Below the pieces are notes generated by a model. That model was not told where the DNA came from. It saw only the letters and a list, made by a program, of their open reading frames with translations, and made no database searches. The translations under genes and the position numbers were made by a program. DNA of 64,000 bases from Plantactinospora endophytica (GTDB lineage Bacteria > Actinomycetota > Actinomycetes > Mycobacteriales > Micromonosporaceae), in contig NZ_BONW01000042.1 in NCBI RefSeq assembly GCF_016862915.1, forward strand, positions 1 through 64,000, given 5' to 3'. Shown here one piece after another: positions 1-27,844 of the stretch. The stretch's first letter is position 1. Each line of letters opens with the position of its first letter.

Positions 1-41
1 AACGGCAGGACGTCCTCAATGACCGAGGCTGACTGACTCAT
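1..41 (-). CDS. NRPS, next subunit, N-terminal fragment only
   Basis: Thirteen codons of a gene that runs off the left edge. The ATG (39-41) overlaps the TGA of the upstream NRPS (38-40) as ATGA, so the two are translationally coupled. The visible residues end in VIEDVLP, which resembles the usual start of a condensation domain (family knowledge: the next residues are commonly LSPLQEG). A condensation domain is what is expected directly after an upstream module ending in an epimerization domain, and it would be of the D-accepting (DCL) type. Everything beyond the first 13 residues is outside the window, so the identity rests on the short match and on context. Confidence 0.7.
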
Positions 42-14342: not shown

Positions 14343-14630
14343 TCAACCGGCGTCCGTGCCCGGCTCGTGCGCCCCGGCGAGGTAGGCGACCAGGCCGTCG
14401 ACCGTGGGGTACTCCCAGAGCAGGTCCGAGTCGAGTTCGCGGTGCAGCAGGTCCTCGACCTCGGCGACCAGGGCCACCGCGGAGATCGAGTCGAGCCCGT
14501 GGTCGGCCAGCGGCCGGTCGGCGGGCACCTGCTGCGGCGGGACGTCGAGCAGGGCGGCGGCGCGGGCCAGGACGAACGTCCGCAGCTCGTCGGCGGGGAT
14601 CGGCAGCCCGGCCCGCAGGTCGCCGGTCAT
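14343..14630 (-). CDS. Acyl carrier protein (lipoinitiation)
   Basis: Free-standing carrier protein of 95 aa. The phosphopantetheine attachment site is the GLDS motif, with Ser48 as the attachment residue, inside the usual four-helix carrier fold ending in a LxxYLAG helix. It sits between the fatty acyl-AMP ligase and the NRPS. Its ATG shares one base with the stop of the ligase (TGATG), showing tight coupling. The inferred role is to receive the acyl group activated by the ligase and present it to the first condensation domain of the NRPS. A longer in-frame start exists upstream inside the ligase gene, but the ATG at 14630 gives the normal length for this family. Confidence 0.93.
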   Translation of the reverse strand: MTGDLRAGLPIPADELRTFVLARAAALLDVPPQQVPADRPLADHGLDSISAVALVAEVEDLLHRELDSDLLWEYPTVDGLVAYLAGAHEPGTDAG

Positions 14631-16435
14631 CACACCAGCTCCGGGCGGCGGGCGGCGGTGGTCTGCACCGGCACCAGGTCGCGCCACCGGGCGTCGACCT
14701 CGACGTGCTCGGCGGTCAGCTCGCCGTTGCGGACGAGTTCGCGCATCGCGGTCCGCTCGATCTTGCCGCTGGTGGTACGCCGGACACCGCCGCGACGCAG
14801 CAGGATCACCGCACAGGCGCCGACGCCGAACTCGCGGGCGACGGTGTGCCGGATCTCGCCGGCCAGCCGGGCGAGGCCGGGCCGGTCCCGGGGGTCGGTC
14901 ACCTCGTGCACCACGACCAGCAGGTCGTCGCCGCTGCTGTCCGGTTCGGCGAGGGTGAAGACGGCACCGACGTTGCCGAGGCCCGGATGCCGGCCGCGCA
15001 ACTCGTGCTCGACGTCCTGCGGGTACAGGTTCCGGCCGTGGATGATCATCATCTCCTTGATCCGTCCGGTGACGTACAGCTCGCCGTCGTGCACGGTGCC
15101 CAGGTCACCGGTACGCAGGTAGCCCGCGTCGCCGTCGGCGGTGACCGCGCCGAGCACCTGGGCCGTCGCCTCCGGCCGGCGCCAGTACCCCGACGTGACG
15201 CTCGGCCCGCGCAGCCAGATCTCGCCGACCCGGCCCGGTTCCAGCACCGCCCGGGTCGCCGGGTCGACGATCCGCACGTCGTACTCGGGTGCGGTGCCGT
15301 TGCTGGGCAGTTCCCGGATGCCGGCGTCACCGGACGCCGGCCGGAACCGGTGCCCGGCGAGCTGTGCGGCGTCCACCCGGGCGACGCCGAGCGGCCGGGG
15401 CGGGGCACCGGAGACGAACACGGTCGCCTCGGCCAGCCCGTAGCAGGGGCAGCAGGCGTCGGCGGAGAACCCGGCCGGGGCGAACCGCCGGGCGAAGCCG
15501 CGCATGGTCGCGACCCGGACCGGCTCGGAGCCGTTCACCGCGTACTTCCAGCGGGACAGGTCGAGCCCGGCGATCTGCTCGTCGCTGATCCGCTCGACGC
15601 AGTAGTCGTAGGCGAAGTTGGGCGCCGGCGACCAGCCGATGTCGTACTTGTCGATCATCGTGAGCCAGGCCAGCGGGCGCTTGAGGAAGCTGACCGGTTC
15701 CATCAGCACGCAGGTGCTGCCGGCGAAGAGCGCCGGCAGGGTCTGCGCCATCAGCCCCATGTCGTGGTAGTGCGGGGCCCAGCCGCCGAACCGCAGGCCC
15801 GCCGGCACCCGCAGGGTCTCCAGCAGCGTGGCGGTGTTGTGCAGCAGGTTGCCGTGGGTCACCATCACGCCCTTGGGGTCGCCGGTCGACCCCGAGGTGT
15901 ACTGCAACAGGGCGAGGGTGCCGGCGTGCACCGACGGCGGCTGCCAGCTTCCCGGGTCGGTGCCGACCTCGCCGTCGGTGGCCAGAATCTCCAGCTCGGC
16001 GAGCGGGCCGGCCGCAGCGAACTCGCGGACGGTGGCCAGGTGCGCGGTCTCGGTGAGTACGGCCGCCACCTCGGCGTCGGCGGCGATGCCGCGCACCCGG
16101 CGCTGCTCGTGCCGGTACCGCCCGGGCAGCGGGGCGGGTACGGCGACCATGCCCGCGTACAGGCAGCCGAGGAAGCCCACGATGAACCGGACCGGTGAGT
16201 AGAGCAGCAGTACCCGGGAACCGACCGGGCAGCGCTCGCGCAGCCAGACCGCCACCGCGCGGGCCTGCTCGTCGAGTTCGGCATAGCTCAGCCGCTCGTC
16301 CCGGCGCTCGCCGGGATCCTCGACCCAGATCAACGCGTCCGACGACGGCCGACGAGCCGCCCAGCGGCGCACCGCCTCGATCGCGTCCGGCAGTTCGCGG
16401 ATGCCTGTTCCGCCGCTCTCGCCGTCCACTGTCAT
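14630..16435 (-). CDS. Fatty acyl-AMP ligase (FAAL-type)
   Basis: Adenylate-forming enzyme of 601 aa that activates a fatty acid as acyl-AMP and is expected to load it on the adjacent ACP rather than on CoA. The ATP-binding motif TSGSTGDPKG is near residue 183. Further motifs are HYHDMGL, the NGSEPVR segment, the YGLAEATVF loop and the C-terminal LRTGDLG and TSGKIERT region with the catalytic lysine. HYHDMGL and NGSEPVR are typical of the FAAL/FadD32 group rather than of amino-acid A domains. ATG at 16435 is preceded by GGGGAGAG at good spacing, so the 47-residue upstream extension is rejected. First gene of the operon with ACP and NRPS, and thus the lipid-initiation enzyme. The acyl chain itself cannot be predicted from the sequence. 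Confidence 0.93.
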   Translation of the reverse strand: MTVDGESGGTGIRELPDAIEAVRRWAARRPSSDALIWVEDPGERRDERLSYAELDEQARAVAVWLRERCPVGSRVLLLYSPVRFIVGFLGCLYAGMVAVPAPLPGRYRHEQRRVRGIAADAEVAAVLTETAHLATVREFAAAGPLAELEILATDGEVGTDPGSWQPPSVHAGTLALLQYTSGSTGDPKGVMVTHGNLLHNTATLLETLRVPAGLRFGGWAPHYHDMGLMAQTLPALFAGSTCVLMEPVSFLKRPLAWLTMIDKYDIGWSPAPNFAYDYCVERISDEQIAGLDLSRWKYAVNGSEPVRVATMRGFARRFAPAGFSADACCPCYGLAEATVFVSGAPPRPLGVARVDAAQLAGHRFRPASGDAGIRELPSNGTAPEYDVRIVDPATRAVLEPGRVGEIWLRGPSVTSGYWRRPEATAQVLGAVTADGDAGYLRTGDLGTVHDGELYVTGRIKEMMIIHGRNLYPQDVEHELRGRHPGLGNVGAVFTLAEPDSSGDDLLVVVHEVTDPRDRPGLARLAGEIRHTVAREFGVGACAVILLRRGGVRRTTSGKIERTAMRELVRNGELTAEHVEVDARWRDLVPVQTTAARRPELV

Positions 16436-17019
16436 CTGTGCTCTCCCCGCCGTGGTAGTGCCGGACCGGGCCGAGCGCCCGCGTGCCCGAATGGCGCGCG
16501 CGTATCCGGCAGACAATGCCATTCGTCGACGTTCGGCAGCGCCACCGTAACGAGCAGCGATGGAGGGGTCAAGCAATCTTTCGAGTAGCCGAAAAGGCTA
16601 ACGTCAGAGGGGTGGCGAGATTTGGAGAGGTGGCGACAATATCGTCCTGCGTCTTTCACCCGACGCTGAAACAGGATGACCACGACAACCCTCGCTGCTA
16701 GCGTACGGGAGGCTGTGAGCTGGGTCTTTGCCTTGCATCGGCGCAGTTTCACGGTAAGCGGAGCACCGCAGGCGCTGTTTTGGACGAGGCTTAAAAACCG
16801 CCGTCACGGGTCCATTTCGAAAGGACGACCACACGCGGTCGCGCGACGGGAAGAAGAACTGACGACCGAATCCGCCGCCGTCGGGACGCCGATGCCGGAC
16901 GACCTGTCGGCGGGCATACGAAAACGGTGCCGACCATCGCTTCGACAGTACGGACTTCCGGAGGTTCACCGCATGCCCGAGCACCTGAGTGGATACCGAC
17001 CCCGACGGGAGGCCCGGTC
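16436..17019. promoter_or_regulatory. Divergent promoter region between NRPS and deoxysugar operons
   Basis: 584 bp without a credible gene, visibly richer in A/T than its flanks. It must hold the promoters for the leftward FAAL-ACP-NRPS operon and the rightward sugar operon. Visible structure: a small inverted repeat tagccgaaaaggcta (16586-16600) and a near-perfect direct repeat (16607-16618 and 16625-16636). The SARP encoded about 4 kb away is a reasonable candidate regulator, but I could not identify a canonical SARP heptamer array with 11-bp or 22-bp spacing. Short open frames here lack start signals and codon bias. Confidence 0.6.
16607..16636. repeat. 12-bp direct repeat, possible operator
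   Basis: gaggggtggcga (16607-16618) is repeated as gagaggtggcga (16625-16636), 11 of 12 bases identical and offset by 18 bp. It lies in the divergent NRPS/sugar promoter region next to the small hairpin at 16586-16600. Direct repeats are the binding mode of SARP and some other activators, although their usual spacing is 11 or 22 bp, so the assignment is only a suggestion. Confidence 0.4.
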
Positions 17020-17634
17020 ATGAAGATCATCCCGGGCGAGCTGCCGGGCATGTTCCGGCTACAGCCGGAGCACCTGGAGGACCGGCGGGGCCGCTTCTTC
17101 GAGGCGTGGCGCTCCGACGAGCTGGCCGAGGCGGCCGGCCGGCGGTTCGAGGTACGGCAGGTGAACTTCTCCATCTCCCGGCGCAACACGCTGCGCGGCA
17201 TCCACGGCACGCTGACCCCGCCCGGCCAGGCGAAACTGGTCACCTGTGTCCGGGGCACCGTGCTCGACGTGGTGGTCGACATGCGGATCGGCTCGCCGAC
17301 CTACGGCCGGTACGCGACCACGGTGCAGGACGCCGAGTCGGGCCTCGCGGTCTACATGGCCGAGGGCCTGGGCCACGCCTTCCTGGCGCTCACCGACGAC
17401 GTCTGCATGAACTACCTCTGCTCCACCGAGTACGTCCCCGGAACCATGGTGGACGTGCAGGCGCTCGATCCCGAGATCGGCATCCCGTGGAACCTGACCG
17501 CCCCGCCGGTGATGTCCGACAAGGACGCCGCCGCACCCACGCTGGCCGAGGCCGCCGCCGCCGGGCTGCTGCCCACGTACGAGGACTGCCTCGCGCTGCC
17601 CGACCCCGGGCGTACCCCCGTCGGGCAGGGCTGA
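17020..17634 (+). CDS. dTDP-4-keto-6-deoxyhexose 3,5- or 5-epimerase (RmlC/EvaD family)
   Basis: Cupin-fold sugar-nucleotide epimerase of 204 aa. The RmlC active-site pattern is intact: RGIHG with His62, Lys72 in GQAKL, His119 in GLGHAF and the acid Tyr132 in CMNYLCS. The GxL/GxLTPPGQ loop and the ALDP ending resemble the EvaD/EryBVII/OleL-type enzymes of antibiotic deoxysugar pathways more than housekeeping RmlC. It would convert a D-configured 4-keto sugar into the L-series. ATG at 17020 has GGGAGG upstream; a GTG 31 codons further upstream lacks support. First gene of a tight four-gene sugar operon, with the next ATG 2 bp after its stop. Whether it acts on C3, C5 or both cannot be told from sequence. 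Confidence 0.9.
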   Translation: MKIIPGELPGMFRLQPEHLEDRRGRFFEAWRSDELAEAAGRRFEVRQVNFSISRRNTLRGIHGTLTPPGQAKLVTCVRGTVLDVVVDMRIGSPTYGRYATTVQDAESGLAVYMAEGLGHAFLALTDDVCMNYLCSTEYVPGTMVDVQALDPEIGIPWNLTAPPVMSDKDAAAPTLAEAAAAGLLPTYEDCLALPDPGRTPVGQG

Positions 17635-17636
17635 CC

Positions 17637-19082
17637 ATGCTCATCGACGCACCCCACCTGGAAGCGCCGGCCTCCGACGACCTGTTCGGGCTGTCGGCGG
17701 CACATCCCGACAGCCCGGTCCTGCCGATGCGGGAGTTCGACGCCTGGCTGGCCGCCCGGGGCCGGACCCAGCAGCACCGGGTCACCCGGATACCGCTGGC
17801 CGACATGGCCGGCTGGCAGAGCGAACCGGAGACCGGCAACCTGGTGCACGACAGCGGCCGGTTCTTCTCCATCGAGGGCCTGGACGTCTGGACGGACCGG
17901 ACCTGGGCCGGGCACTGGCAGCAGCCGATCATCGTGCAGCCCGAGGTCGGCGTGCTCGGCATCCTGGTACGCCGGATCGACGGCGTACCGCACCTGCTGA
18001 TGCAGGCGAAGATGGAACCGGGCAACGTCAACGGCATCCAGCTCTCCCCGACCGTGCAGGCCACCTGGAGCAACTACACCGGGGTGCACGGCGGGCGGGA
18101 CGTGCCGTACCTGAACCACTTCCTCGGCCCCGGCGCCGGGCGCACCGTCGTCGACGTGCTCCAGTCCGAGCAGACCGCGTGGTACCTGCACAAGCGCAAC
18201 CGCAACATGATCGTCGAGGTGACCGGCCCGGTCGAGGCCCGGGACGGCTTCTGCTGGCTGACCCTGGGTCAGGTCCGGCGGCTGCTGCACCGCGACCACC
18301 TGGTCAACATGGACGCCCGGACGGTGCTGGCCTGCATCCCGCCGCCCGGCCCGGCCGACGTGGTGCCGACCGCCGACCCGTTCCGGGCCGCGCTGCGCGA
18401 CTCGCTGCGCGGGCGGGGCCGGCCGGAGACGCCGACCCCGGAACTGCTGAGCTGGCTGACCGACATCCGGGCCCGCCGCCGGCTGGTGCAACGCCGGGTA
18501 CCGCTGCACTCGGCGCGGGCGCACGGCTGGCGCTGGCACCCGGACGAGATCGCGCACACCGACGGCAAGTACTTCCGGGTGATCGGCGTGCACGTGCAGG
18601 CCGGCGACCGCGAGGTGCGTTCGTGGAGCCAGCCGCTCATCGAACCGGTCGAGCCGGGCGTGGTGGCGCTGATCGTCAAGCCGGTCGACGGGGTGCTGCA
18701 CGCGCTGGTGCAGGCCCGGATCGACGCGGGCGCGGCGAACGTCGCCGAACTCGCGCCGACGGTGAACTGCCAGCCGGGCAACTACGTCGGGGTGCCGGCC
18801 CCGTTCCGGCCGCCGTTCCTGGACCACGTGCTGGCGGCCGACCCCCGGCGGATCCGGTACGACGTGATGCTCTCCGAGGAGGGCGGACGCTTCTACCACG
18901 CGCACAACCGGTACGTGGTGCTCGAAGCCGATCCGGACTTCGCCACCGCACCCGGCCGCTACCACCGGTGGATGACCCTGCACCAGTTGTCCGGCCTGCT
19001 GCGGCACTACAACTACCTGAACGTCGAGCTGCGCAGCGTACTGGCCGGGGTGCACACCCTGGACGGATTCGGAGGGCTCTGA
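17637..19082 (+). CDS. NDP-hexose 2,3-dehydratase
   Basis: Protein of 481 aa made of two homologous halves, the hallmark of the EvaA/TylX3/OleV/Gra27 family. Each half carries a block of the type (S/D)GRFFSI or DGKYFRV, then WxQPxI, a VDGVxHxLxQA strand and an LxPTVxxxxxNY end (first half about residues 60-175, second about 300-390). It removes the C2 hydroxyl of NDP-4-keto-6-deoxyglucose, giving an unstable 3,4-diketo product that the next gene's ketoreductase must trap. It starts 2 bp after the epimerase stop and overlaps the ketoreductase by one base (TGATG). Its presence shows that the sugar made here is a 2,6-dideoxyhexose or a derivative. Confidence 0.95.
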   Translation: MLIDAPHLEAPASDDLFGLSAAHPDSPVLPMREFDAWLAARGRTQQHRVTRIPLADMAGWQSEPETGNLVHDSGRFFSIEGLDVWTDRTWAGHWQQPIIVQPEVGVLGILVRRIDGVPHLLMQAKMEPGNVNGIQLSPTVQATWSNYTGVHGGRDVPYLNHFLGPGAGRTVVDVLQSEQTAWYLHKRNRNMIVEVTGPVEARDGFCWLTLGQVRRLLHRDHLVNMDARTVLACIPPPGPADVVPTADPFRAALRDSLRGRGRPETPTPELLSWLTDIRARRRLVQRRVPLHSARAHGWRWHPDEIAHTDGKYFRVIGVHVQAGDREVRSWSQPLIEPVEPGVVALIVKPVDGVLHALVQARIDAGAANVAELAPTVNCQPGNYVGVPAPFRPPFLDHVLAADPRRIRYDVMLSEEGGRFYHAHNRYVVLEADPDFATAPGRYHRWMTLHQLSGLLRHYNYLNVELRSVLAGVHTLDGFGGL

Positions 19083-20098
19083 TGGCCGCCACGGGTTCCC
19101 CACTGCGCTTCGGGATCATGGGCTGCGCCGACATCGCACTGCGCCGGATGCTGCCCGCGCTGGCGGCCGAGGAGTCGGCCGTGGTCACCGCGATCGCCAG
19201 CCGCGATCCGGGCAAGGCCGAGGCGGTCACCAAACGGTTCGGCGGCGAGCCGGTGCACGGGTACGACGCACTGCTCGACCGCGACGACGTGGACGCGGTG
19301 TACCTGCCGCTGCCGGCCGTACTGCACGCCGAGTGGATCGCCCGGGCGCTGCGCGCCGGCAAGCACGTACTCGCCGAGAAGCCGCTCACCACCGACCTCG
19401 ACCAGGCCCGGGAGCTGTTCGCGCTGGCCCGGCGGCAGGGGCTGGTGCTCTACGAGAACTTCATGTTCCTGCGACACTCCCAGCACGCGGCGGTGGCCCG
19501 GATGGTCGCCGACGGCGCGATCGGCGAGCTGCGCGGCTTCGCCGCCACCTTCACCATCCCGCCCAAGCCCGCCGGGGACATCCGCTACCAGCCGGAGGTC
19601 GGCGGCGGTGCCCTCGACGACATCGGCGTCTACCCGGTCCGGGCAGCCCTGCACCACCTGCCCGGCGAGCTGTCGGTCACCGGCGCGGTGCTCCGGGTCG
19701 ACCCGGTCGGCGGGGCGGTGCTCTCCGGCAGCGTACTGCTGCACACCGCCGAGGGCGTGCCGGCGCAGTTGCGGTTCGGCATGGAGCACGCGTACCAGAG
19801 CAGCTACGAACTGGTCGGCAGCACCGGCCGGCTGCTGCTGGACCGCGCCTTCACCCCGCCGCCCAGCCTGGCGCCGGTGGTCCGGATCGACCGCCAGGAC
19901 CATCGGGAGGAGATCACGTTGCCCGCCGACGACCAGTTCCGCAACGTCGTCGTCCTGTTCACCGGCGCGGTGGCGACCGGTGACCTGCTGCCCGAGATCT
20001 CCGCCGGCTCGCTGCGCCAGGCCGAGACGGTGGCCCGGATCAAGGAGTATGCCGTGCGCCGCCCGGCGGTCGCCGTCGGAAAGGGAGTGAACGAGTGA
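19082..20098 (+). CDS. NDP-hexose 3-ketoreductase (Gfo/Idh/MocA family)
   Basis: Oxidoreductase of 338 aa. The N-terminal Rossmann fold shows GIMGCADIA, and the family EKP motif (LAEKPLTT) sits near residue 100, followed by the C-terminal alpha/beta substrate domain with GGGALDDIGVYPV. In deoxysugar pathways OleW/UrdT/LanT-type members reduce the C3 keto group left by the 2,3-dehydratase encoded directly upstream, with which it overlaps by one base. It overlaps rmlA downstream by GTGA. Position and family fit a 3-ketoreductase. The stereochemistry of the product (olivose-like or digitoxose-like) cannot be predicted. Confidence 0.9.
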   Translation: MAATGSPLRFGIMGCADIALRRMLPALAAEESAVVTAIASRDPGKAEAVTKRFGGEPVHGYDALLDRDDVDAVYLPLPAVLHAEWIARALRAGKHVLAEKPLTTDLDQARELFALARRQGLVLYENFMFLRHSQHAAVARMVADGAIGELRGFAATFTIPPKPAGDIRYQPEVGGGALDDIGVYPVRAALHHLPGELSVTGAVLRVDPVGGAVLSGSVLLHTAEGVPAQLRFGMEHAYQSSYELVGSTGRLLLDRAFTPPPSLAPVVRIDRQDHREEITLPADDQFRNVVVLFTGAVATGDLLPEISAGSLRQAETVARIKEYAVRRPAVAVGKGVNE

Positions 20099-20994
20099 AG
20101 GGCATCGTCCTGGCCGGCGGGACCGGCACCCGGCTGCATCCGATCACCATCTCGGTGTCGAAACAACTGCTGCCGGTCGGCGACAAGCCGATGATCTACT
20201 ACCCGCTCTCGGTGCTGATGGCCGCGGGCGTCCAGGAGATCCTGGTGATCACCCGCCCCACCGACCAGCCGCTGTTCCGGACCCTGCTCGGCGACGGCGC
20301 GCACCTGGGGCTGGACATCTCCTACGCCGAGCAGCCGCAGCCCCGGGGCATCGCCGAGGCGCTGCTGCTCGGCGCCGACCACATCGGCGACGACTCGGTC
20401 GCGCTGATCCTCGGCGACAACATCTTCCACGGGCCGTCGTTCTCCCGGCTGCTCCAGCGGGAGGCCGACCAGGTGGACGGCGCCACGCTGTTCGGCTACC
20501 GGGTCCAGGACCCGGAGCGGTACGGAGTCGGCGTGACCGACGCCGACGGCCGGCTGCTGGCGATCGAGGAGAAGCCGGCCCGCCCCCGGTCCAACCGGGC
20601 GATCACCGGCCTCTACCTGTACGACAACGAGGTCGTCGACATCGCCAAGAACATCCAGCCGTCGGCCCGGGGCGAGCTGGAGATCTCGGACGTGAACGCG
20701 GAGTACCTGCGCCGGGGCCGGGCGAAGCTGGTCGACCTCGGCCGTGGGTTCGCCTGGCTGGACACCGGCACCTTCGAGTCACTGGTCCAGGCCGGACAGT
20801 ACGTCCGCACCCTGGAGGAAAGGCAGGGGGTACGGATCGCCTGCCTGGAGGAGCTGGCCCTGCGGATGGGCTTCATCGACGCCGACGCCTGCCACGCGCT
20901 GGGCGCCGCGATGCCCAACTCGGACTACGGCCGGTACGTGATGAACGTCGCCCGGGAACTGACCGGCGACGTCGAGTACCTGCCGGCGGGCTAG
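20095..20994 (+). CDS. rmlA: Glucose-1-phosphate thymidylyltransferase
   Basis: Nucleotidyltransferase of 299 aa that makes dTDP-glucose from dTTP and glucose-1-phosphate, the entry step for the deoxysugar. Signature motifs are LAGGTGTRLHP at the N-terminus, KQLLPVGDKPM, the LGDNIF metal site near residue 110, IEEKPARP and WLDTGT. Length is typical of short-form RmlA. Start is GTG within a GTGA overlap with the upstream stop, with GGGAG 9 bp before. A cluster-borne copy implies dedicated sugar supply, yet its usual partner RmlB (4,6-dehydratase) is not in the window. Confidence 0.96.
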   Translation: MKGIVLAGGTGTRLHPITISVSKQLLPVGDKPMIYYPLSVLMAAGVQEILVITRPTDQPLFRTLLGDGAHLGLDISYAEQPQPRGIAEALLLGADHIGDDSVALILGDNIFHGPSFSRLLQREADQVDGATLFGYRVQDPERYGVGVTDADGRLLAIEEKPARPRSNRAITGLYLYDNEVVDIAKNIQPSARGELEISDVNAEYLRRGRAKLVDLGRGFAWLDTGTFESLVQAGQYVRTLEERQGVRIACLEELALRMGFIDADACHALGAAMPNSDYGRYVMNVARELTGDVEYLPAG

Positions 20995-21064
20995 GCCGGG
21001 ATCGGCGACGACCGAAAGGCGCAGCACTGTCGGCGAAGACGCACTGTCACGGGGTGACATAGCA

Positions 21065-21895
21065 GTGGAATTCCGTATCCTTGGGCCCGTCGAGCTGTGG
21101 CGCGACGGGCACGAGGTGCCGTTGAACGGCACCAAGCAGAAGACCCTGCTGGCCGCCCTGCTGCTGGCCCGGGGGCACGTGCTCACCGACCACCAGCTCA
21201 GCGGGGTGCTCTGGGGCGACGACATGCCGGAGACCCAGCAGGCCCAGATCTACACGGCCGCGTCGCGGCTGCGACGCCAGTTCGACGACACCGCCGAACT
21301 CAACCGGCAGGGTTCCGGATACCTCCTGGAACTCCGCTCGGCCAGCTTCGACTACCAGGACTTCGTCCGGTTGTCCGGGGCCGGCCGGGCCGCGATGGGT
21401 GAGCACCGCTACGAACGGGCGGCCGAACTCCTCGACACGGCCCTGGCGCTCTGGCAGGGCCCCACGCTGACCGGCGTGACGAAACTGCTGGCGGATGCCG
21501 CCTGCCCCCGCCTCGACGAGGAGCGCCTCGACGCGCTGGAGAACCGGATCGAGGCCGAACTGGCGCTCGGCCGGCACGCCCGGCTGATCCCGGAACTCAT
21601 CGGCCTGGTCGGCGCCTACCCGATGCGGGAGCGCATCCGGGCACAGTTGATGACCGCACTGTACCTGTCGGACCGGCAGGCCCAGGCGTTCGCGACGTAC
21701 CAGGAGGGGTGTCGGCTGCTCGCCGACGCGTTCGGGGCGGATCCGGGGCCGACGTTACGCAACGCGTACCAGGCGATCCTGACCGGCGAGCTGGCGCGGC
21801 GGGTACCGGAGCCGGTCGGGGCCCGGGTGCCCGGGGACCCGACGCGGGCCGGGCACCCGGGCCTCCTGCCCACCCGGCCTGCGCTGCGGGCGTGA
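21065..21895 (+). CDS. SARP-family transcriptional activator
   Basis: Regulator of 276 aa with an OmpR-like winged-helix DNA-binding domain (about residues 1-90, FRILGPVEL at the start and LSGVLWG in the recognition region). A bacterial transcriptional activation domain follows (about 95-240, with DEERLDALE and the YQEGCRLL repeat). Short SARPs of this kind are pathway-specific activators of antibiotic clusters and bind direct heptamer repeats at target promoters. The C-terminal 25 residues are Pro/Gly rich and probably disordered. GTG start with poor ribosome-binding site. It follows the sugar operon after 70 bp, so it may be read from the same transcript. It is the best candidate activator of this cluster. 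Confidence 0.93.
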   Translation: MEFRILGPVELWRDGHEVPLNGTKQKTLLAALLLARGHVLTDHQLSGVLWGDDMPETQQAQIYTAASRLRRQFDDTAELNRQGSGYLLELRSASFDYQDFVRLSGAGRAAMGEHRYERAAELLDTALALWQGPTLTGVTKLLADAACPRLDEERLDALENRIEAELALGRHARLIPELIGLVGAYPMRERIRAQLMTALYLSDRQAQAFATYQEGCRLLADAFGADPGPTLRNAYQAILTGELARRVPEPVGARVPGDPTRAGHPGLLPTRPALRA

Positions 21896-21897
21896 CG

Positions 21898-21941
21898 CCG
21901 GCGCGACCCGATCCCCGGTACGCGGGGACCGGACGCGCCGG
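21898..21941. terminator. Bidirectional GC-rich terminator
   Basis: Outer arms ccggcgcg (21898-21905) and cgcgccgg (21934-21941) are perfectly complementary. An inner hairpin ccccg-gtacg-cgggg (21913-21927) sits between them. It lies exactly between the stop of the SARP gene and the stop of the convergent isomerase gene, as expected for a shared terminator. Confidence 0.7.
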
Positions 21942-21946
21942 TGCCG

Positions 21947-22561
21947 TCACGCGACCGCCGCCGCCGGCAGCTCCGAGTCGTCCCGTACCGGCCAGCTCGC
22001 CGGATCGGCGCCGAGGTCGACCAGTTCCGCGACCTGCAACGCCGACCAGGGCGAGATCGATCCCGGCCGGGCCGCCGCGTCGGCCACGTAGGCGTGCCAC
22101 GGGTACCACTCGGCCGAGTCCACCTCCGCCGGGTTGATGGTGAGCATCGCGGCGGAGTCGGCGTACGCCCGGTAGACCGGGCACAGCTCGTTCTCCACCA
22201 TCCCGTCGGCCATCACCGCCCGGTAGCGGAACCGGGGCAGTACCAGGTCGAGCCGCTGCACCGACACCCCGAGTTCCTGCCACAGCCGGCGTACGACGGC
22301 GTCCCGCATGGACTCGCCGGGGCCCGGGTGGCCGCAGCAACTGTTCGTCCGTACCCCCGGCCAGGTCTTCTTGCTCCGCGCCCGCCAGGTGACCAGCAGG
22401 CGGTCCGAGGCGTCGAACACGTAGCACGAGAACGCCAGGTGCAGCGGCGTCTCGGCGTGGTGTACGTCCCGCTTGAGCATCTGGCCGGCGGCCGAGCCGT
22501 CCGGGCCGCACAGCACGACGGACTCGGTGGACTCCTGCTCGACTACGGATAGGGTCTGCAC
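21947..22561 (-). CDS. idi: Isopentenyl-diphosphate delta-isomerase, type 1
   Basis: NUDIX-fold isomerase of about 204 aa that interconverts IPP and DMAPP. Both catalytic signatures are present: NSCCGHP with the catalytic cysteine and ENELCPVY with the catalytic glutamate. Two GTG codons are possible starts. The first (22567) overlaps the upstream stop as GTGA but lies on the ribosome-binding site, whereas the second (22561) has GAGGAG at 5 bp, so the second is preferred. It is directly coupled to the prenyltransferase gene upstream, so its evident job is to supply DMAPP to that enzyme. Confidence 0.95.
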   Translation of the reverse strand: MQTLSVVEQESTESVVLCGPDGSAAGQMLKRDVHHAETPLHLAFSCYVFDASDRLLVTWRARSKKTWPGVRTNSCCGHPGPGESMRDAVVRRLWQELGVSVQRLDLVLPRFRYRAVMADGMVENELCPVYRAYADSAAMLTINPAEVDSAEWYPWHAYVADAAARPGSISPWSALQVAELVDLGADPASWPVRDDSELPAAAVA

Positions 22562-22563
22562 GC

Positions 22564-23706
22564 TCACTCCTCGGTTCGGGCCAGGGCGAGGACGCCCGGT
22601 CTGCCGCTCTGTACGGGTTTGACGCCATAGATCTCCGTGGACAGGTAGACGGTGACCCCGGGTCGGGGTACCCCCATCCGCAGCGAGATGTGGGAGATCA
22701 GCCCTCTCCCCTGTTCGAGTGGCCGGCGGGCGACGGCGGCGATGGCGTCCTCGCAGCCGGTCGGGTCGTGCCCGAAGCGCTCCAGCACCGCGATCACGCG
22801 CTCCCGGGCCTCCCGGTCGTCGGCCACGTAGTCGCGCACCGGGATGTACAACGAGTACCCGCTCGGCGTGTCCCGCCGTCGGGACAGGAACGAGTAGCTG
22901 GACATCAACGGCCGGCGGTCGTGCCGGTCGCCCTGGTCACCGGCGAGTCGGCAGAACTCGCGTACCTGGTCCAGGTCGATCCCGGGCACCGCCTTGGCCG
23001 CCCGGACGGCGTCGTCGGCGCTGGCCGCCCGGTGGCTGACGTAGACCTTGACCCGGGCGTCCGGCCCGTCGTTGAGGTCGAGTGCGAAGTAGCCGCAACT
23101 GTCCAGGCCCGGTCCCCGGCTCAGGCCGGAGTCCTGGAGCACCCGGAAGCCCTCGCCGAAGCCGAGCCGGTGCAGTGCCTCGCGGACCAGCTCGGCGCTG
23201 TTGGCCGGGCCGCCCGCCGCCGGGTTGAGGTACGCCTTGACCTCCGGGTGCTCGTCCCGCAGCACGATCGAATACCAGAGCGCGAAGAGCCCGGTGGCGT
23301 GCTGCGGAAAGAAGAGGTCACCGAGCGAGAGCAGCCGGTTCGTCGAGAGTCCATGGTGCCCGAGCAGCCGGTTCAGCCCGCTCAGCGCGTGCCGGGTGTT
23401 CGACCGGTGGCTCGGGTAGGCCGCGATGGGCTCCACGAGGATCCGGACCGACGGTGCCCGGTTCGGCTCGAACGCCACCGACCACTCCACCGGGGAGTGG
23501 TCGTCGGCGACGTCGGAGGGCCAGGCCGGCGGGGCGCCCACCCGGCGCGCGACGACGTCGCCGAGGAACGTCTCGAGCAGTCGCATGCCGGAGTCGTACT
23601 GTGCCCCGGCACCGACCGCCGTCAGCAGACCGGCGAATTGGTCGCGCAGCAGTGCGCCGAGGGTGAGATCGGGTGTGTGCGGAGGTCTCTGGAAGTGAGA
23701 GGTCAC
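22564..23706 (-). CDS. DMATS-type aromatic prenyltransferase
   Basis: Protein of about 380 aa resembling bacterial members of the dimethylallyltryptophan synthase family (CymD/IptA/MpnD group), which transfer C5 prenyl groups to indoles or other aromatics with an ABBA barrel fold and no DDxxD motif. Recognisable stretches are EWSVAFEP, VRILVEPI, KAYLNP, KVYVSHR and VTVYLSTEIYG; the alternating basic and aromatic residues on these strands form the diphosphate and tyrosine shield in the family. GTG at 23706 has GGGGA upstream; the frame remains open to an unsupported GTG at 23733. It overlaps the IPP isomerase gene. The acceptor is not known: a tyrosine or tryptophan in the NRPS product, or a free amino acid incorporated later, are the likely options. 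Confidence 0.85.
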   Translation of the reverse strand: MTSHFQRPPHTPDLTLGALLRDQFAGLLTAVGAGAQYDSGMRLLETFLGDVVARRVGAPPAWPSDVADDHSPVEWSVAFEPNRAPSVRILVEPIAAYPSHRSNTRHALSGLNRLLGHHGLSTNRLLSLGDLFFPQHATGLFALWYSIVLRDEHPEVKAYLNPAAGGPANSAELVREALHRLGFGEGFRVLQDSGLSRGPGLDSCGYFALDLNDGPDARVKVYVSHRAASADDAVRAAKAVPGIDLDQVREFCRLAGDQGDRHDRRPLMSSYSFLSRRRDTPSGYSLYIPVRDYVADDREARERVIAVLERFGHDPTGCEDAIAAVARRPLEQGRGLISHISLRMGVPRPGVTVYLSTEIYGVKPVQSGRPGVLALARTEE

Positions 23707-23811
23707 GTGCGGATCCCCATTCAGTCGAAACACCGGAGCGCGACGGGCCCGCTGCCCGGACCGATCGCTTCACGACACGGTGACTCATCATGTCGGGGCC
23801 ATCGATATCTG

Positions 23812-23828
23812 ATCTATAAAACATAGAT
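23812..23828. promoter_or_regulatory. Perfect inverted repeat, candidate operator of the prenyltransferase operon
   Basis: Arms atctat and atagat, separated by aaaac, are perfectly symmetrical in an otherwise GC-rich sequence, about 105 bp upstream of the prenyltransferase start. The rightmost arm overlaps a stretch that could serve as the -10 region on the minus strand. Confidence 0.45.
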
Positions 23829-24033
23829 AATCGAACGATAATCAAGGGCGTACGAGGCCGACGGGAATCGAATTCGTCCGGCGCTCGGGGCGGGGCGCGC
23901 TATGCGTACGGGCGCGGTCGGGCAGAGGCGTCCGCAACGGGGCGGAAAACGTCGGTCGGCACTTTTTCGGGGACCGCTGAAAGGTATCGTCCCGCGCGGC
24001 ACGGCGCCGACGCGTCCGACCACGGTCAGAGAT

Positions 24034-24048
24034 CCAGGTCAGACCTGG
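24034..24048. promoter_or_regulatory. Perfect inverted repeat, candidate response-regulator site
   Basis: ccaggt-cag-acctgg is a perfect 6+3+6 palindrome 26 bp upstream of a TATAGC -10-like element, at the position of a -35 region. NarL-type regulators often autoregulate from such sites, so the adjacent response regulator is the first candidate. Confidence 0.45.
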
Positions 24049-24088
24049 GAGGCATGTGCGGAGCAGCCCGCCGGTATAGCGTTCTGGC

Positions 24089-25312
24089 ATGCGCTCCGAC
24101 TCCCCCGGGAGCTTCACCTGGCTCACCGGATCGAGGATCCGGGCCGTCATCGACATCACCGTCGCCGTGCTGCTGGCCTACCTGGCCGCCGCCGCCGCGC
24201 TCGATCCGCCCGGTCGCCCGTTCGACGGGCCGGCCTGGATCGCCTGGCTGGTCGGCGCGGCGGTCGGGCTGCCGCTGGCGCTGCGGCGCCACTGGCCGCT
24301 ACCGGTGTTCGCCTGGGTGGCGGTGACGGCGGCGGCGGCGACCGCGTTCGGCGCGGTCGGTGCCGGGGTGATCTGGGTGACCTACGCCTCGGTCGCCCTC
24401 GGTCTGTACACCGTGGCCACCGCGCACGGGCCGGTGTTGGCGACGCTGTCGCTGGCCGGCACGCTGGCCGCCGCGGTCGCCACCATTCCCTGGTTCTACG
24501 ACCTGTACGGACCCTCGTCCGCCGACGCCGCGAGCAGCGAGGTGCCGCTCTGGTGGCCGGTCGACCTGGGAATGGTGACGGTGACCCTCGCCGCGGCCTG
24601 GGTGACCGGGCGGCTGGTACGGTGGCGGCGCGGCGTCCGGGCCGACGCCGCCCGCCGGCTGGCCCGGGACGCGGTGTCCGAGGAGCGGCTGCGGATCGCC
24701 CGGGAGCTGCACGACATCATCGGACACAGCATGAGCCTGATCGCGGTGAAGGCGACGGTGGCCAACCACATCGCCACCGAGCGCCCCGAGGAGGTACGCG
24801 CCGCGCTGGGCACCATCGAGCAGACCAGCCGGGCCGCGCTCACCGAGATCCGCCGACTGCTCGGGGTACTGCGGTCGGACTCCGAATCGGCGGCCGAGCT
24901 GAGCCCGGCGCCGGGCACCGCCGACCTGCCGGACCTGGCCGAGCGGCTGCGTTCGGCGGGGCTGCGGGTGGACCTCGGCGTGCACGGCACGGACGAGTTG
25001 CCCAAGGCGGTCGACCTGACGGTGTACCGGATCGTGCAGGAGGCGCTGACCAACGTGATAAAGCACGCGCAGGCGGCGCACTGCCGGGTGCGGGTACGCA
25101 CCGGGGACGGTGAGGTGCACATCGAGGTGGTCGACGACGGCCGGGGGGCGCACCGCTCCGCAGGTGGACGCTCCGGTGGCGGTCAGGGGCTGATCGGGAT
25201 GCGGGAACGTGTGAGCATGTACGGCGGCACCCTGTCCGCCGGCCCGCTGCCCCGGGGCGGGTTCCAGGTGATCGCCGACATCCCGTACGACGCCTCGGAG
25301 GAGAGCGCATGA
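24089..25312 (+). CDS. NarL-type sensor histidine kinase
   Basis: Membrane kinase of 407 aa. The N-terminal part (about residues 18-185) has five or six hydrophobic segments with only short loops, so it senses within or near the membrane. The HisKA_3 dimerisation domain carries the phospho-acceptor in RELHDIIGHS (His208), followed by a HATPase domain with QEALTNVIKHA, VVDDGRG and GGQGLIGMRERV. It overlaps the response regulator by ATGA, so the two form a standard pair. ATG at 24089 has no ribosome-binding site but a -10-like element 8 bp upstream, suggesting a leaderless transcript. The signal is unknown. Closeness to the cluster allows, but does not prove, a role in controlling it. Confidence 0.95.
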   Translation: MRSDSPGSFTWLTGSRIRAVIDITVAVLLAYLAAAAALDPPGRPFDGPAWIAWLVGAAVGLPLALRRHWPLPVFAWVAVTAAAATAFGAVGAGVIWVTYASVALGLYTVATAHGPVLATLSLAGTLAAAVATIPWFYDLYGPSSADAASSEVPLWWPVDLGMVTVTLAAAWVTGRLVRWRRGVRADAARRLARDAVSEERLRIARELHDIIGHSMSLIAVKATVANHIATERPEEVRAALGTIEQTSRAALTEIRRLLGVLRSDSESAAELSPAPGTADLPDLAERLRSAGLRVDLGVHGTDELPKAVDLTVYRIVQEALTNVIKHAQAAHCRVRVRTGDGEVHIEVVDDGRGAHRSAGGRSGGGQGLIGMRERVSMYGGTLSAGPLPRGGFQVIADIPYDASEESA

Positions 25313-26016
25313 CCGACGTCCAGGCTGCCCCGGCCGCACCGTCCGGATCGGACATCGGCGTGCTGATCGCCGACGACCACGCCCTGCTGCGGGACAGCTT
25401 CCGGGCGCTGCTCGACGCCACCCCGGGTTTCGTCCCGGTGGGCGAGGCCGGCACCGGCGCGGAGGCCGTGCGGATGACCCGGCAGTACCGGCCCGACGTG
25501 GTGCTGATGGACGTCCGGATGCCCGAACTGGACGGCATCGAGGCGACCCGGCAGATCTGCGCCAACCCGGACACCGAGTCGGTACGGGTGCTCATCCTGA
25601 CCACCTTCGACCTGGACGAGTACGTCTACACGGCGTTGCAGGCCGGTGCGAGCGGGTTCCTGGTGAAGGACACCACCGCCGCCGACCTGCTGGCCGCCAT
25701 CCGGGTGGTCGCTTCCGGCGAGGCGCTGCTGTCGCCCCGGATCACCCGGCGGCTGATCTCCACGTTCGCCGGCCAGGCCCAGCCGCCGGTCGGGTCGGGC
25801 GCCAACCTGGAGGCGGTGACCCAGCGGGAACGCGAGGTGCTGACGCTGATCGCGCGCGGGATGTCCAATGCCGAGATCGCCGAGGACCTGCACGTGGCGC
25901 TGGGCACGGTGAAGACCCATATCGGACGGCTGCTCGGCAAGCTCGACGCGCGGGACCGGGCACAGTTGGTGATCGCCGCGTACGAGGCCGGGCTGGTCCG
26001 GCCGGGCGGCCGGTGA
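25309..26016 (+). CDS. NarL/FixJ-type response regulator
   Basis: 235 aa: receiver domain (about 15-130) with phospho-acceptor Asp68 in VLMDVRMP, acidic pair DD near residue 22, and the conserved Lys in FLVKDT. A C-terminal LuxR helix-turn-helix follows (about 165-230, REREVLTLIARGMSN and VALGTVKTHIGRLLGKL). It overlaps the kinase by ATGA and is its cognate output. The inverted repeat at 24034-24048 in front of the pair is a candidate target. Confidence 0.95.
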   Translation: MTDVQAAPAAPSGSDIGVLIADDHALLRDSFRALLDATPGFVPVGEAGTGAEAVRMTRQYRPDVVLMDVRMPELDGIEATRQICANPDTESVRVLILTTFDLDEYVYTALQAGASGFLVKDTTAADLLAAIRVVASGEALLSPRITRRLISTFAGQAQPPVGSGANLEAVTQREREVLTLIARGMSNAEIAEDLHVALGTVKTHIGRLLGKLDARDRAQLVIAAYEAGLVRPGGR

Positions 26017-26017
26017 T

Positions 26018-26069
26018 CCGGGTCGGGCCGATGAACCGGTCGGGCCGCTGACCCGGTCGGGCCGTTGAA
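26018..26069. repeat. Three tandem copies of a 17-18 bp unit
   Basis: ccggtcgggccgctgac-type units follow each other at 26018-26035, 26036-26052 and 26053-26069, with only a few substitutions. They fill the short space between the stops of the convergent response-regulator and sulfotransferase genes. No hairpin terminator is evident there. Confidence 0.7.
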
Positions 26070-26077
26070 GCAGTCCG

Positions 26078-27094
26078 TCAGGCCGGTGCCAGTGCCTCTT
26101 CGCCGGGGGCGCAGGCGAGCAGCAGTTCCTCTCGGACCGGCGGGTCGAGCCGTTGCGCCGAACCGGTCAGGGAGCCGTCCATGAGCTTGCCGACCCGGTC
26201 CAGCCACGGCTGGTCGGCGGGCACCCCGAGGAACGCGGCCAGGGTGGCGAACTGGGCGGTCGGCTCGGCGACCATCCGCTCGTAGCGCAGGTCGAGCCGG
26301 TCGGCCGGGTCCAGTCCGGACAGCTCCCGCACGCCGTGCTGGATCATCGAGGACCAGAACTCGCCGAAGTCGCGTACCGGCAGGTCGGCGTTCATGATCA
26401 GCTCGGGGCTGTAGTCGCCCCGGAAGAACCGCTGGTAGTCCTCGGGCAGCCGGTCGAGGTGGTTCTTGATCAGGCCGGGCACCGGCACCCCGGCCACCCG
26501 GGCGGCGGTCCGGGGCAGCATCATCAGGCGGAACCCGAAGTGCCGGCTCATCGACAGCGCGCAGTCGGGTCCGTTGCGGAAGATGTGCACGAAGCGCGCC
26601 TCGGGAAACATCGCCCGCAGCCGGTGCACGTAGTTCAGCGAGGTGCCGGAGCGCTCGACGACGGTCTGCCGGCCGAACCGTCGGGCGAGCCAGCCGAACA
26701 GGTCGCGGTAGTGCTCCACCACCGGCCGAAGTGGCCAGTTCGGCAGCTCGGCGGCGAGTTCGTCGTAGAGCCCGTCCGGGTCGTCGGTCAGCTCCGGCAG
26801 CGTCATGTGGCAGATGGCCGGTACGTCGGCGAGCCGGCCGAACCGTCCGGTGTCGTACGGGTACACCTGCTCGCGGGTGCGCAGTCCGTTGCGGACCATG
26901 GCGTCGATCGCCGGGTCCGGCGCGCTGAGCATCCGCCAGAACCGCTCGCCGTCGATCGGCCCCTCCGGAAAGGCACGGTTGCGCAGCGAGGCGAAGAACT
27001 CGCTCAGGCTGAGGATGTCCGGGTGGGTGTGCAATGCCTTGCTCAGAATCGTCGACCCACACCGGCCGGTGCCGACGACAAAGGTCAAGGACAT
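26078..27094 (-). CDS. PAPS-dependent sulfotransferase family protein
   Basis: 338 aa, soluble. The 5'-phosphosulfate-binding loop is VGTGRCGSTILSKAL at residues 7-21, and the 3'-phosphate segment is VHIFRNGPDCALSMSRHF in mid-protein, matching the Sulfotransfer_3 family of small-molecule and Nod-type sulfotransferases. ATG at 27094 has GGAGG 5 bp upstream, so an N-terminal extension to 27157 is rejected. It converges on the two-component system and stands alone. Its place at the edge of the biosynthetic cluster suggests tailoring (sulfation of tyrosine, sugar or a hydroxylated lipid), but no PAPS-supply genes are near. Desulfo family members with other roles cannot be ruled out. Confidence 0.8.
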   Translation of the reverse strand: MSLTFVVGTGRCGSTILSKALHTHPDILSLSEFFASLRNRAFPEGPIDGERFWRMLSAPDPAIDAMVRNGLRTREQVYPYDTGRFGRLADVPAICHMTLPELTDDPDGLYDELAAELPNWPLRPVVEHYRDLFGWLARRFGRQTVVERSGTSLNYVHRLRAMFPEARFVHIFRNGPDCALSMSRHFGFRLMMLPRTAARVAGVPVPGLIKNHLDRLPEDYQRFFRGDYSPELIMNADLPVRDFGEFWSSMIQHGVRELSGLDPADRLDLRYERMVAEPTAQFATLAAFLGVPADQPWLDRVGKLMDGSLTGSAQRLDPPVREELLLACAPGEEALAPA

Positions 27095-27268
27095 CGTAAC
27101 CTCCATGGGGCCGCGAGGGTCCGACGATAAATTCTCCCGGCAGCGGCTGTCAATCACGTCGGGTGCCGGGCGCGGAGCGTACCCGTAGGTTTTCCTGGGT
27201 TATTAAACACCACCTGAATGTCCGGGCGTCCCGATCGCCGGCAGGACCATTTGGCGAGGCATTGAAGA

Positions 27269-27286: not shown

Positions 27287-27331
27287 CGGAATGCTACCTT
27301 GGTGGCACGGTCGTCGTTTGGGGGGACACGC

Positions 27332-27844
27332 ATGCGCGTCACTGTCCGAGCCGTTCTCGGAACGGCCACCATCCTGGGTCTGTTGCTGGTCCTGCCCGGG
27401 GCGGCCACCGCCGCGGTCACCGACGCCCAACGGCTCGCGGTCGCCATCCAATGGACCCAGCCCACCGGCCCCAGTCAGCAGGAGTGGGACAGCGCCCGGC
27501 TCGACCAGGCGCCGTGGGCCGAATACCAGTTCGACTGGACGACCGACTACTGCACGACCAGCCCGGACGAGCCGTTCGGCTTCGACTTCCGGCTGCCCTG
27601 CCAGCGGCACGACTTCGGCTACCGCAACTTCACCGCGCTCGGGGTCCTCGACGCCCACAAGGACCGGCTGGACGACGCGTTCCACGTCGACCTGCGGGCG
27701 GTCTGCGACGGGTACGGCGGTCTGCAACGCTCGGCCTGCCGGGGACTGGCCCGCACCTACTACGAGGCGGTCCGGTTGCTCGGGCTCTCCGACGTGACCG
27801 CGCGGCAGATCGACGACGGCACCCGGGACACCCGGGGCGAGTAG
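27332..27844 (+). CDS. Secreted prokaryotic phospholipase A2
   Basis: 170 aa with a clear Sec signal peptide (MRVTV, hydrophobic LGLLLVLPG, cleavage near ATAA|VT, about residue 28). The mature domain is the small helical PLA2 of the Streptomyces violaceoruber type: the catalytic His-Asp pair lies in CQRHDFGYRNF (His93, Asp94), preceded by the calcium-loop region around DWTTDYC. Cysteines at DYC, LPC, VC and AC would form two disulfides. It cleaves the sn-2 ester of phospholipids outside the cell. ATG at 27332 has GGGGGGA at good spacing; an in-frame TTG further upstream is rejected. A single gene behind a palindromic operator candidate. Confidence 0.92.
   Translation: MRVTVRAVLGTATILGLLLVLPGAATAAVTDAQRLAVAIQWTQPTGPSQQEWDSARLDQAPWAEYQFDWTTDYCTTSPDEPFGFDFRLPCQRHDFGYRNFTALGVLDAHKDRLDDAFHVDLRAVCDGYGGLQRSACRGLARTYYEAVRLLGLSDVTARQIDDGTRDTRGE

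Follow-up and report, generated by a model that had tools for sequence, protein, structure and literature searches.

A split gene cluster in Plantactinospora endophytica predicted to encode a glycosylated, sulfated telomycin-like peptide with a probable strain-specific prenylation

Telomycin, the product of the tem/tlo cluster of Streptomyces canus, is initiated by a fatty acyl-AMP ligase (FAAL) and a free acyl carrier protein (ACP), and its assembly line terminates in a dimodular unit that adds Ile and then Pro (Tem22 codes); its nine-residue ring and two-residue tail imply eleven residues in all. A FAAL orthologous to Tem18 (75-99%) is a further mark of the family. The sections of PMC9113097 that concern its lipid report that this is lost after release, and the compound is known for acting against cardiolipin (PMC4807238). 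DMATS-type prenyltransferases are described from other settings: the passages of PMC3617294 on the Type A indole-prenylation cluster, which leads to 6-dimethylallylindole-3-carbaldehyde, have the tryptophanase-linked IptA transfer a dimethylallyl group onto C6 of tryptophan, and those of PMC8401383 on the cyclomarin enzyme have it prenylate free Trp before loading. Here we analyse a 64,000-nucleotide stretch of the P. endophytica genome (the window; positions 1 to 64,000 of contig NZ_BONW01000042.1, here C42), focusing on its 14.3-27.1 kb interval, with gene scans that took in 1-33 kb. An initial annotation had placed genes for lipid loading, dideoxysugar formation, supply and transfer of dimethylallyl diphosphate (DMAPP), a sulfotransferase, a SARP and a two-component system together in this interval; all were confirmed, every gene type being an intact open reading frame with a Pfam match above cut-off, and RmlA and Idi also by NCBIfam models. 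The window is best read as holding the opening third of a single cluster of about 80 kb, with a remainder of some 54 kb on another contig of the same genome (C28), and on balance we lean, with modest confidence, towards a product that would be an eleven-residue, telomycin-like cyclic depsipeptide with sugars, sulfate, a strain-specific prenyl group and a temporary lipid.

Base 1 of the window is the end of C42, in an assembly of 9.7 Mb and 90 contigs. The nonribosomal peptide synthetase (NRPS) encoded beside it, NRPS1, consists of four condensation-adenylation-thiolation (C-A-T) modules with an epimerisation-type (E) domain last, and a Pfam scan of it found no thioesterase (TE). Bases 41-39 on the minus strand form the ATG that opens NRPS2, overlapping the NRPS1 stop. 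NRPS2 continues from base 2 of C28 with five each of A, T and C/E domains, the first C domain being cut off, and the alignment of this fragment to the contiguous NRPS2 of another member of the family, G221, starts at residue 427 of the latter; the part missing between the contigs is estimated at about 1.2 kb. We infer the join from this alignment and from gene order in relatives. In addition to NRPS3, the C28 part, which extends to about 53.7 kb, carries genes for two MbtH proteins, four glycosyltransferases, two P450s, a penicillin-amidase family protein, an alpha/beta hydrolase, a 915-residue ferritin-like protein, the E chain of methylaspartate mutase with a B12-binding partner, a GH95-like protein, RmlB (C28:41553-42563), ATP-binding cassette (ABC) exporters and a methyltransferase.

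Related clusters were reached with two queries, neither of them NRPS1: the FAAL, among 300 genomes of the family, which led to G187 (same family, other genus), and the 2,3-dehydratase, in a named genome collection, where the sole close relative adjoins a related NRPS in Sciscionella sediminilitoris (NZ_JALM01000103.1; G354). Both genomes have, in the same order, NRPS1 (68-69%), the ACP, the FAAL (70-71%), RmlC (63-68%), the dehydratase (72-73%), the ketoreductase (73-75%) and RmlA (73-80%), after which the G187 contig stops. In Sciscionella the sugar genes are followed by the histidine kinase (66%) and response regulator (72%), with an ABC pair in place of SARP-Idi-DMATS; since this pair has counterparts on C28 (78% and 60%), genes have moved within the cluster. 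The sulfotransferase gene behaves similarly. In G187 (68%) and Sciscionella (62%) it stands in the other cluster half, between a glycosyltransferase and a methyltransferase gene, whereas on C28 these two adjoin without it, so that the window sulfotransferase is taken to be the cluster's own, relocated copy. It is these displacements, together with the NRPS2 start at the contig end, the continuation of NRPS2 and NRPS3 on C28 and the C28 relatives of G187 and Sciscionella genes, that argue for one cluster. The cluster of G221, which lies on one contig, is more distant (NRPS1-3 51-52%, FAAL 60%, acylase 59%, ferritin-like protein 55%).

Over the three synthetases there are eleven modules (4+5+2), whose A-domain specificity codes were derived from an alignment with the Thr domain (Table 1); among the relatives, a motif-based reading missed some A domains, such as module 1 of Sciscionella NRPS1 and module 10 of G187, and these do not figure in the code comparison. 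We take modules 1, 2, 4 and 5 to specify Asp, a Tyr-like, an Asp-like and a Pro-like residue, and modules 6, 7, 9 and 10 Gly, Asp, a Trp-like residue and Tyr, module 8 being unreadable. The module 4 residue is possibly 3-methyl-Asp, which would fit the methylaspartate mutase. Initiation by FAAL and free ACP, an acylated start combined with a cluster acylase, CAT-CAT-TE termination and the number of residues are common to this cluster and telomycin, and Thr3 here would give a ring of the same nine residues. Residues 5 (Pro-like) and 7 (Asp) presumably depart from telomycin's order; the sugar genes, four glycosyltransferases, sulfotransferase, DMATS-Idi pair and methylaspartate mutase are present here, and telomycin is not known to carry such decorations. 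Against the codes given in Table 7 of PMC9113097 (Thr, DFWNVGMVHK; Pro, DVQYVAHVVK and, from S. formicae, DVQFVAQVVK) the Thr and Pro readings agree, module 11 matching the S. formicae Tem22-type Pro code in the nine variable residues. Position 10 differs: its code, DASTVAAVC, is Tyr-like and is not the telomycin Ile code listed in that table. The latter was found exactly (DAYLTGLMN) in module 10 of G221, whose contiguous telomycin-like cluster spans about 430000-502200 of its contig C1. Because of the eleven modules, Asp1, Thr3, the Tem22-type terminal Pro code and the acylase, the scaffold is predicted to be telomycin-like, and not telomycin itself. A calcium-dependent lipopeptide of the daptomycin group was also considered and rejected, the order having Gly6-Asp7 and no calcium-binding Asp-X-Asp-Gly tetrapeptide being read, with module 8 unread. 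The earlier statement that no known compound matches is softened by the likeness of the scaffold to telomycin; a decorated telomycin or prenylated glycolipopeptide matching this prediction was not found in the open-access literature, among the matches listed.

These elements suggest the following route. The FAAL and ACP would act as a fatty-acid loading pair, modules 1-4, 5-9 and 10-11 with the terminal thioesterase would build the peptide, and cyclisation would link the Thr3 hydroxyl to Pro11. The acyl chain at the N-terminus would serve as a temporary tag, cut off by a PvdQ/MacQ-like acylase as reported for telomycin. Four glycosyltransferases, a sulfotransferase, a methyltransferase and two P450s are available for decoration, and the sugars and sulfate would be attached to side-chain hydroxyls. 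Idi would supply DMAPP to DMATS for the prenylation of free L-Trp, probably on its benzene ring, and the prenyl-Trp could be loaded by the Trp-like module 9, and perhaps also 8, following the logic of CymD in cyclomarin. Spelled out in full, as a multiply 2,6-dideoxyglycosylated, sulfated telomycin-type depsipeptide with a ring-prenylated D-Trp, a DMATS-Idi pair captured from a tryptophanase-linked locus and a removable fatty-acid tag, the proposal is tentative and falls a little short of an even call.

Several observations weigh against this interpretation. No 4-ketoreductase gene turned up in window 1-33 kb or C28 16-57 kb, the scan of the latter covering all but two small genes (48472 and 49017) and C28:39802 being assessed via its G187 relative. 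The Trp reading of the module 9 code, DVAICGAVA, is inexact, and this code is unlike DGWAVASVCK of the calcium-dependent antibiotic (CDA), the only Trp entry in the PMC9113097 table; the code of module 8 (DSSTHGGVA) is unreadable. For modules 8-9 the assemblies of G187 and Sciscionella offer nothing closer than about 50%, which leaves no basis for comparing Trp pockets between clusters with and without DMATS. None of the three genomes with related clusters (G187, G221 and Sciscionella) gives a DMATS match to the query that does match in other genomes of the family, and the scaffold evidently does not need this enzyme. The G221 cluster is without sugar genes, and the closest sulfotransferase of that genome (32%) lies elsewhere. 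The SARP gene has no counterpart at the matching place in Sciscionella, the G187 contig ending before it, and the available Sciscionella stretches, which cover part of its cluster, gave no match to the acylase.

The fate of the lipid is where an alternative retains most weight. FAAL, free-standing ACP and starter C domain are all present; the FAAL matches NCBIfam fatty acyl-AMP ligase models below their cut-offs, and the first C domain is assigned to the starter type from its place. This complete loading system, together with the Sciscionella result just given, would suit a true lipoglycopeptide that keeps its acyl chain, with the acylase serving, for example, in self-protection or quorum quenching instead. 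We consider this unlikely, if still a serious contender, since an acylase of PvdQ/MacQ type is encoded beside an MbtH-like gene in the P. endophytica, G187 and G221 clusters alike. It scores 613 bits against the NCBIfam PvdQ model, below that model's cut-off of 950, and its best solved chain is 5c9i, which we take to be MacQ. The loss of the telomycin lipid after release, as far as PMC9113097 describes it, argues in the same direction. By this analogy the lipid is probably removed, so that of the glycosylated, prenylated lipopeptide first proposed the glycosylation is supported, probably joined by sulfation, and prenylation is plausible as a strain-specific trait, while the permanent lipid probably falls away.

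The closest solved relatives of the window DMATS are 6zrx (E 5e-91) and PriB (1e-59), followed by 6-DMATS and CymD (2e-33); Pfam places it above cut-off, NCBIfam TIGR03429 below, and by overall similarity and conserved columns it falls with the bacterial Trp prenyltransferases. At E up to 1e-20, DMATS matches occur in 49 of 354 family genomes, P. endophytica included, none of the others exceeding 52% identity, and a class-wide search at E up to 1e-80 (3 of 394 genomes, again including its own) gained no closer relative. Neighbourhoods were compared for 20 relatives, mostly the best-scoring ones: 19 come from the 48 further family genomes with a match, the twentieth from a different family of the order. 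A tryptophanase gene adjoins DMATS in all 20 loci (44-52% identity), 19 by gene calls and one, L095, with the DMATS placed separately, and Idi adjoins it in five; outside this count, G001 likewise has a tryptophanase and G005 was left unresolved. Among these enzymes, L091 (G236:C1:2204879-2205916), itself tryptophanase-linked, is joined to PDB chain 6zrx by a zero-length branch; 6zrx would be the structure of this tryptophanase-linked enzyme or of one nearly identical.

The surroundings of the window pair are different. No tryptophanase match was found in its own genome or in G187, while Sciscionella has a 53% match that is not beside a DMATS. Compared with the Type A cluster in so far as PMC3617294 details it, a related DMATS, sometimes with Idi beside it, is common to both, but neither a tryptophanase nor a conservon adjoins the DMATS here. 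The cyclomarin/ilamycin systems likewise have a DMATS-type enzyme (CymD) in an NRPS cluster with a Trp-like module, although 6zrx and PriB are much nearer relatives of the window enzyme than CymD is. We therefore read the DMATS-Idi pair as one freed from tryptophanase and taken into a peptide cluster, in which DMATS would most likely make prenyl-Trp for the Trp-like module, since it lies between genes of the shared cluster and no tryptophanase was detected in the genome. As no DMATS match came from G187, G221 or Sciscionella, prenylation is probably strain-specific, an addition rather than part of the core.

The same neighbourhood survey favours a passenger, that is, a remnant of a tryptophanase-linked indole-prenylation locus that yields a separate prenyl-tryptophan metabolite or nothing at all, and the occurrence of DMATS relatives elsewhere without the NRPS in part matches what the initial annotation named as telling against its proposal. 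The lack of DMATS matches in the related-cluster genomes and the long end branch of the window enzyme point the same way. In a tree of 29 rows, built without the short row L103_G195, this branch is the longest (1.01, the median being 0.13), and the enzyme joins two other long branches at 87/87, its place being unsure. On the other side, the reading frame is intact and 95 of 110 near-invariant columns (26 rows) are kept, with differences in 15; the GTG start of Idi overlaps the DMATS stop by four bases; the pair sits not at the edge but inside the shared block, between RmlA-SARP and the kinase-regulator pair common to Sciscionella; and the genome offers no tryptophanase partner. We find a passenger doubtful. 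It is more improbable still that the substrate of DMATS is not free Trp but a Trp or Tyr residue within the peptide, be it already assembled or still carrier-bound: the predicted peptide presumably has Tyr-like (modules 2 and 10) and Trp-like (module 9) residues, and the enzyme is divergent, yet its characterised relatives IptA and the cyclomarin enzyme act on free tryptophan in the accounts given in PMC3617294 and PMC8401383.

Over the window and C28 together the core of a thymidine diphosphate (TDP)-2,6-dideoxysugar pathway (RmlA, RmlB, 2,3-dehydratase and 3-ketoreductase) is complete, and with the epimerase, whose closest solved chains are 4hn0 (a 3-epimerase of a D-allose pathway) and NovW (2c0z), the genes are predicted to be a set for a TDP-2,6-dideoxy-4-keto-hexose. 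The digitoxose-type pathway, with its kijanimicin and vancomycin-group enzymes, has the same five enzymes and differs in that no 4-ketoreductase was found here; we take the 3rbv-type ketoreductase to be KijD10. No glycosyltransferase, 4,6-dehydratase or 4-ketoreductase gene was found in window 1-33 kb, all four glycosyltransferases of the cluster being encoded on C28. That the dideoxysugar genes are chance neighbours serving another cluster, as this lack of a nearby glycosyltransferase and their absence from G221 might suggest, is hardly credible and was rejected, given that the block adjoins FAAL-ACP-NRPS1 in P. endophytica, G187 and Sciscionella, thus in both close clusters found, that the only close dehydratase relative in the named collection adjoins a related NRPS, and that the four glycosyltransferases and RmlB lie in the cluster's other half. 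The first assignment of the sugar genes to this NRPS is thereby upheld, and the comparison supports the view that sugar genes and sulfotransferase alike belong to the cluster. The sulfotransferase matches Sulfotransfer_3 (E 1e-19) and, weakly, a solved structure (CurM, E 0.0017); in its alignment a GRCGST loop is shared by all six sequences and R(N/D)GPDCALSMSRH by the four most similar ones, which we take to be the P-loop and the 3'-phosphate motif of sulfotransferases dependent on 3'-phosphoadenosine-5'-phosphosulfate.

The predicted product would be a decorated variant of a known, telomycin-type class of peptides. If this is true, a branch of the telomycin scaffold that carries sugars and sulfate exists in this actinomycete family as well as in Sciscionella, and P. 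endophytica exemplifies the gain of prenylation via a captured tryptophan prenyltransferase. The same core with and without DMATS-Idi would then offer a ready comparison for judging the contribution of prenylation to a peptide antibiotic, S. sediminilitoris being the named relative in which the core could be tested.

Table 1. Features of the cluster and specificity codes of its A domains. Coordinates are those of the window unless C28 is given.
Feature	Coordinates	Strand	Basis or remarks
NRPS2 start	1..41	-	13 codons, cut at contig end; from translation of first bases
NRPS1: starter C-A-T, C-A-T, C-A-T, C-A-T-E	38..14242	-	Pfam; 68-69% relatives in G187, Sciscionella
Free-standing ACP	14343..14633	-	PP-binding E 2e-15
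FAAL	14630..16576; start uncertain, 16333-16576	-	AMP-binding; 70-71% relatives
Nucleoside diphosphate (NDP)-4-keto-sugar 3- or 3,5-epimerase, RmlC/NovW/ChmJ type	17020..17634	+	Pfam; NCBIfam rmlC below cut-off; solved structures
NDP-hexose 2,3-dehydratase, EvaA type	17637..19082	+	Pfam 5e-153; EvaA 4j7g E 6e-127
Sugar 3-ketoreductase, Gfo/Idh/MocA, 3rbv type	19118..20098	+	3rbv 'Sugar 3-ketoreductase' E 7e-118
RmlA, glucose-1-phosphate thymidylyltransferase	20095..20994	+	NCBIfam TIGR01207 above cut-off
SARP-family regulator	21065..21895	+	BTAD E 6e-41
Idi, type 1 isopentenyl-diphosphate isomerase	21947..22567	-	NCBIfam NF002995, TIGR02150 above cut-off
DMATS-type prenyltransferase	22564..23733	-	Pfam Trp_DMAT; 6zrx, PriB, 6-DMATS, CymD; tree (Trp-prenylating clade, long branch)
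Sensor histidine kinase	24089..25312	+	66% relative in Sciscionella cluster
LuxR-type response regulator	25309..26016	+	72% relative in Sciscionella cluster
Sulfotransferase, Sulfotransfer_3	26078..27157; Met start near 27094	-	68% in G187, 62% in Sciscionella
NRPS3	C28:16186-23361		2 C, 2 A, 2 T, terminal thioesterase
NRPS1 codes, modules 1-4			DLTKVGAVN, DASTVAAVD, DFWNIGMVH, DVLKVGAVN; E-type domain after module 4
NRPS2 codes, modules 5-9			DVQYVAQVI, DILQLGLVW, DMTKVGAVN, DSSTHGGVA, DVAICGAVA; E-type domain after module 9
NRPS3 codes, modules 10-11			DASTVAAVC, DVQFVAQVV; TE after module 11

The right border of the cluster lies near 27.2 kb. A continuation beyond this point was rejected, the neighbours encoding a phospholipase A2, glycoside hydrolases, a nitroreductase, a luciferase-like protein and similar proteins (two of the ten scanned being without a family match). 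The phospholipase A2 gene, of prokaryotic type (window 27299-27844), adjoins the sulfotransferase gene, and the 28-47 kb region holds genes for plant-biomass enzymes: AbfB/GH43, GH12 with CBM2, a glucuronoyl esterase with CBM2, AbfB, and a pectate lyase with a ricin-type lectin domain. A PHROGs search gave no match. Further NRPS modules, 50-54% identical to module 9, lie at about 224000-239400 of C42 and probably form a separate cluster.

The 915-residue protein of C28 (C28:30191-32938; L077:10191-12938) has a PF12902 ferritin-like domain, presumably that of VioB/RebD-type enzymes, and at most a weak solved-structure match. Its gene adjoins those for methylaspartate mutase and a P450 in P. endophytica, G187 (75%) and Sciscionella (72%), whereas the G221 relative (55%) has no mutase beside it; used as a marker, it was detected at E up to 1e-60 in 3 of the 354 genomes of the family, and also in Sciscionella, which was reached separately. 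In Sciscionella, a stand-alone C-A-T gene beside the response regulator (L047:17494-20646) has a Thr-like code, DLWNVGMVH, and an N-terminus resembling the NRPS2 start. NRPS2 of that genome begins directly with the Gly module, and module 5 thus seems to have been split off there as a gene of other specificity.

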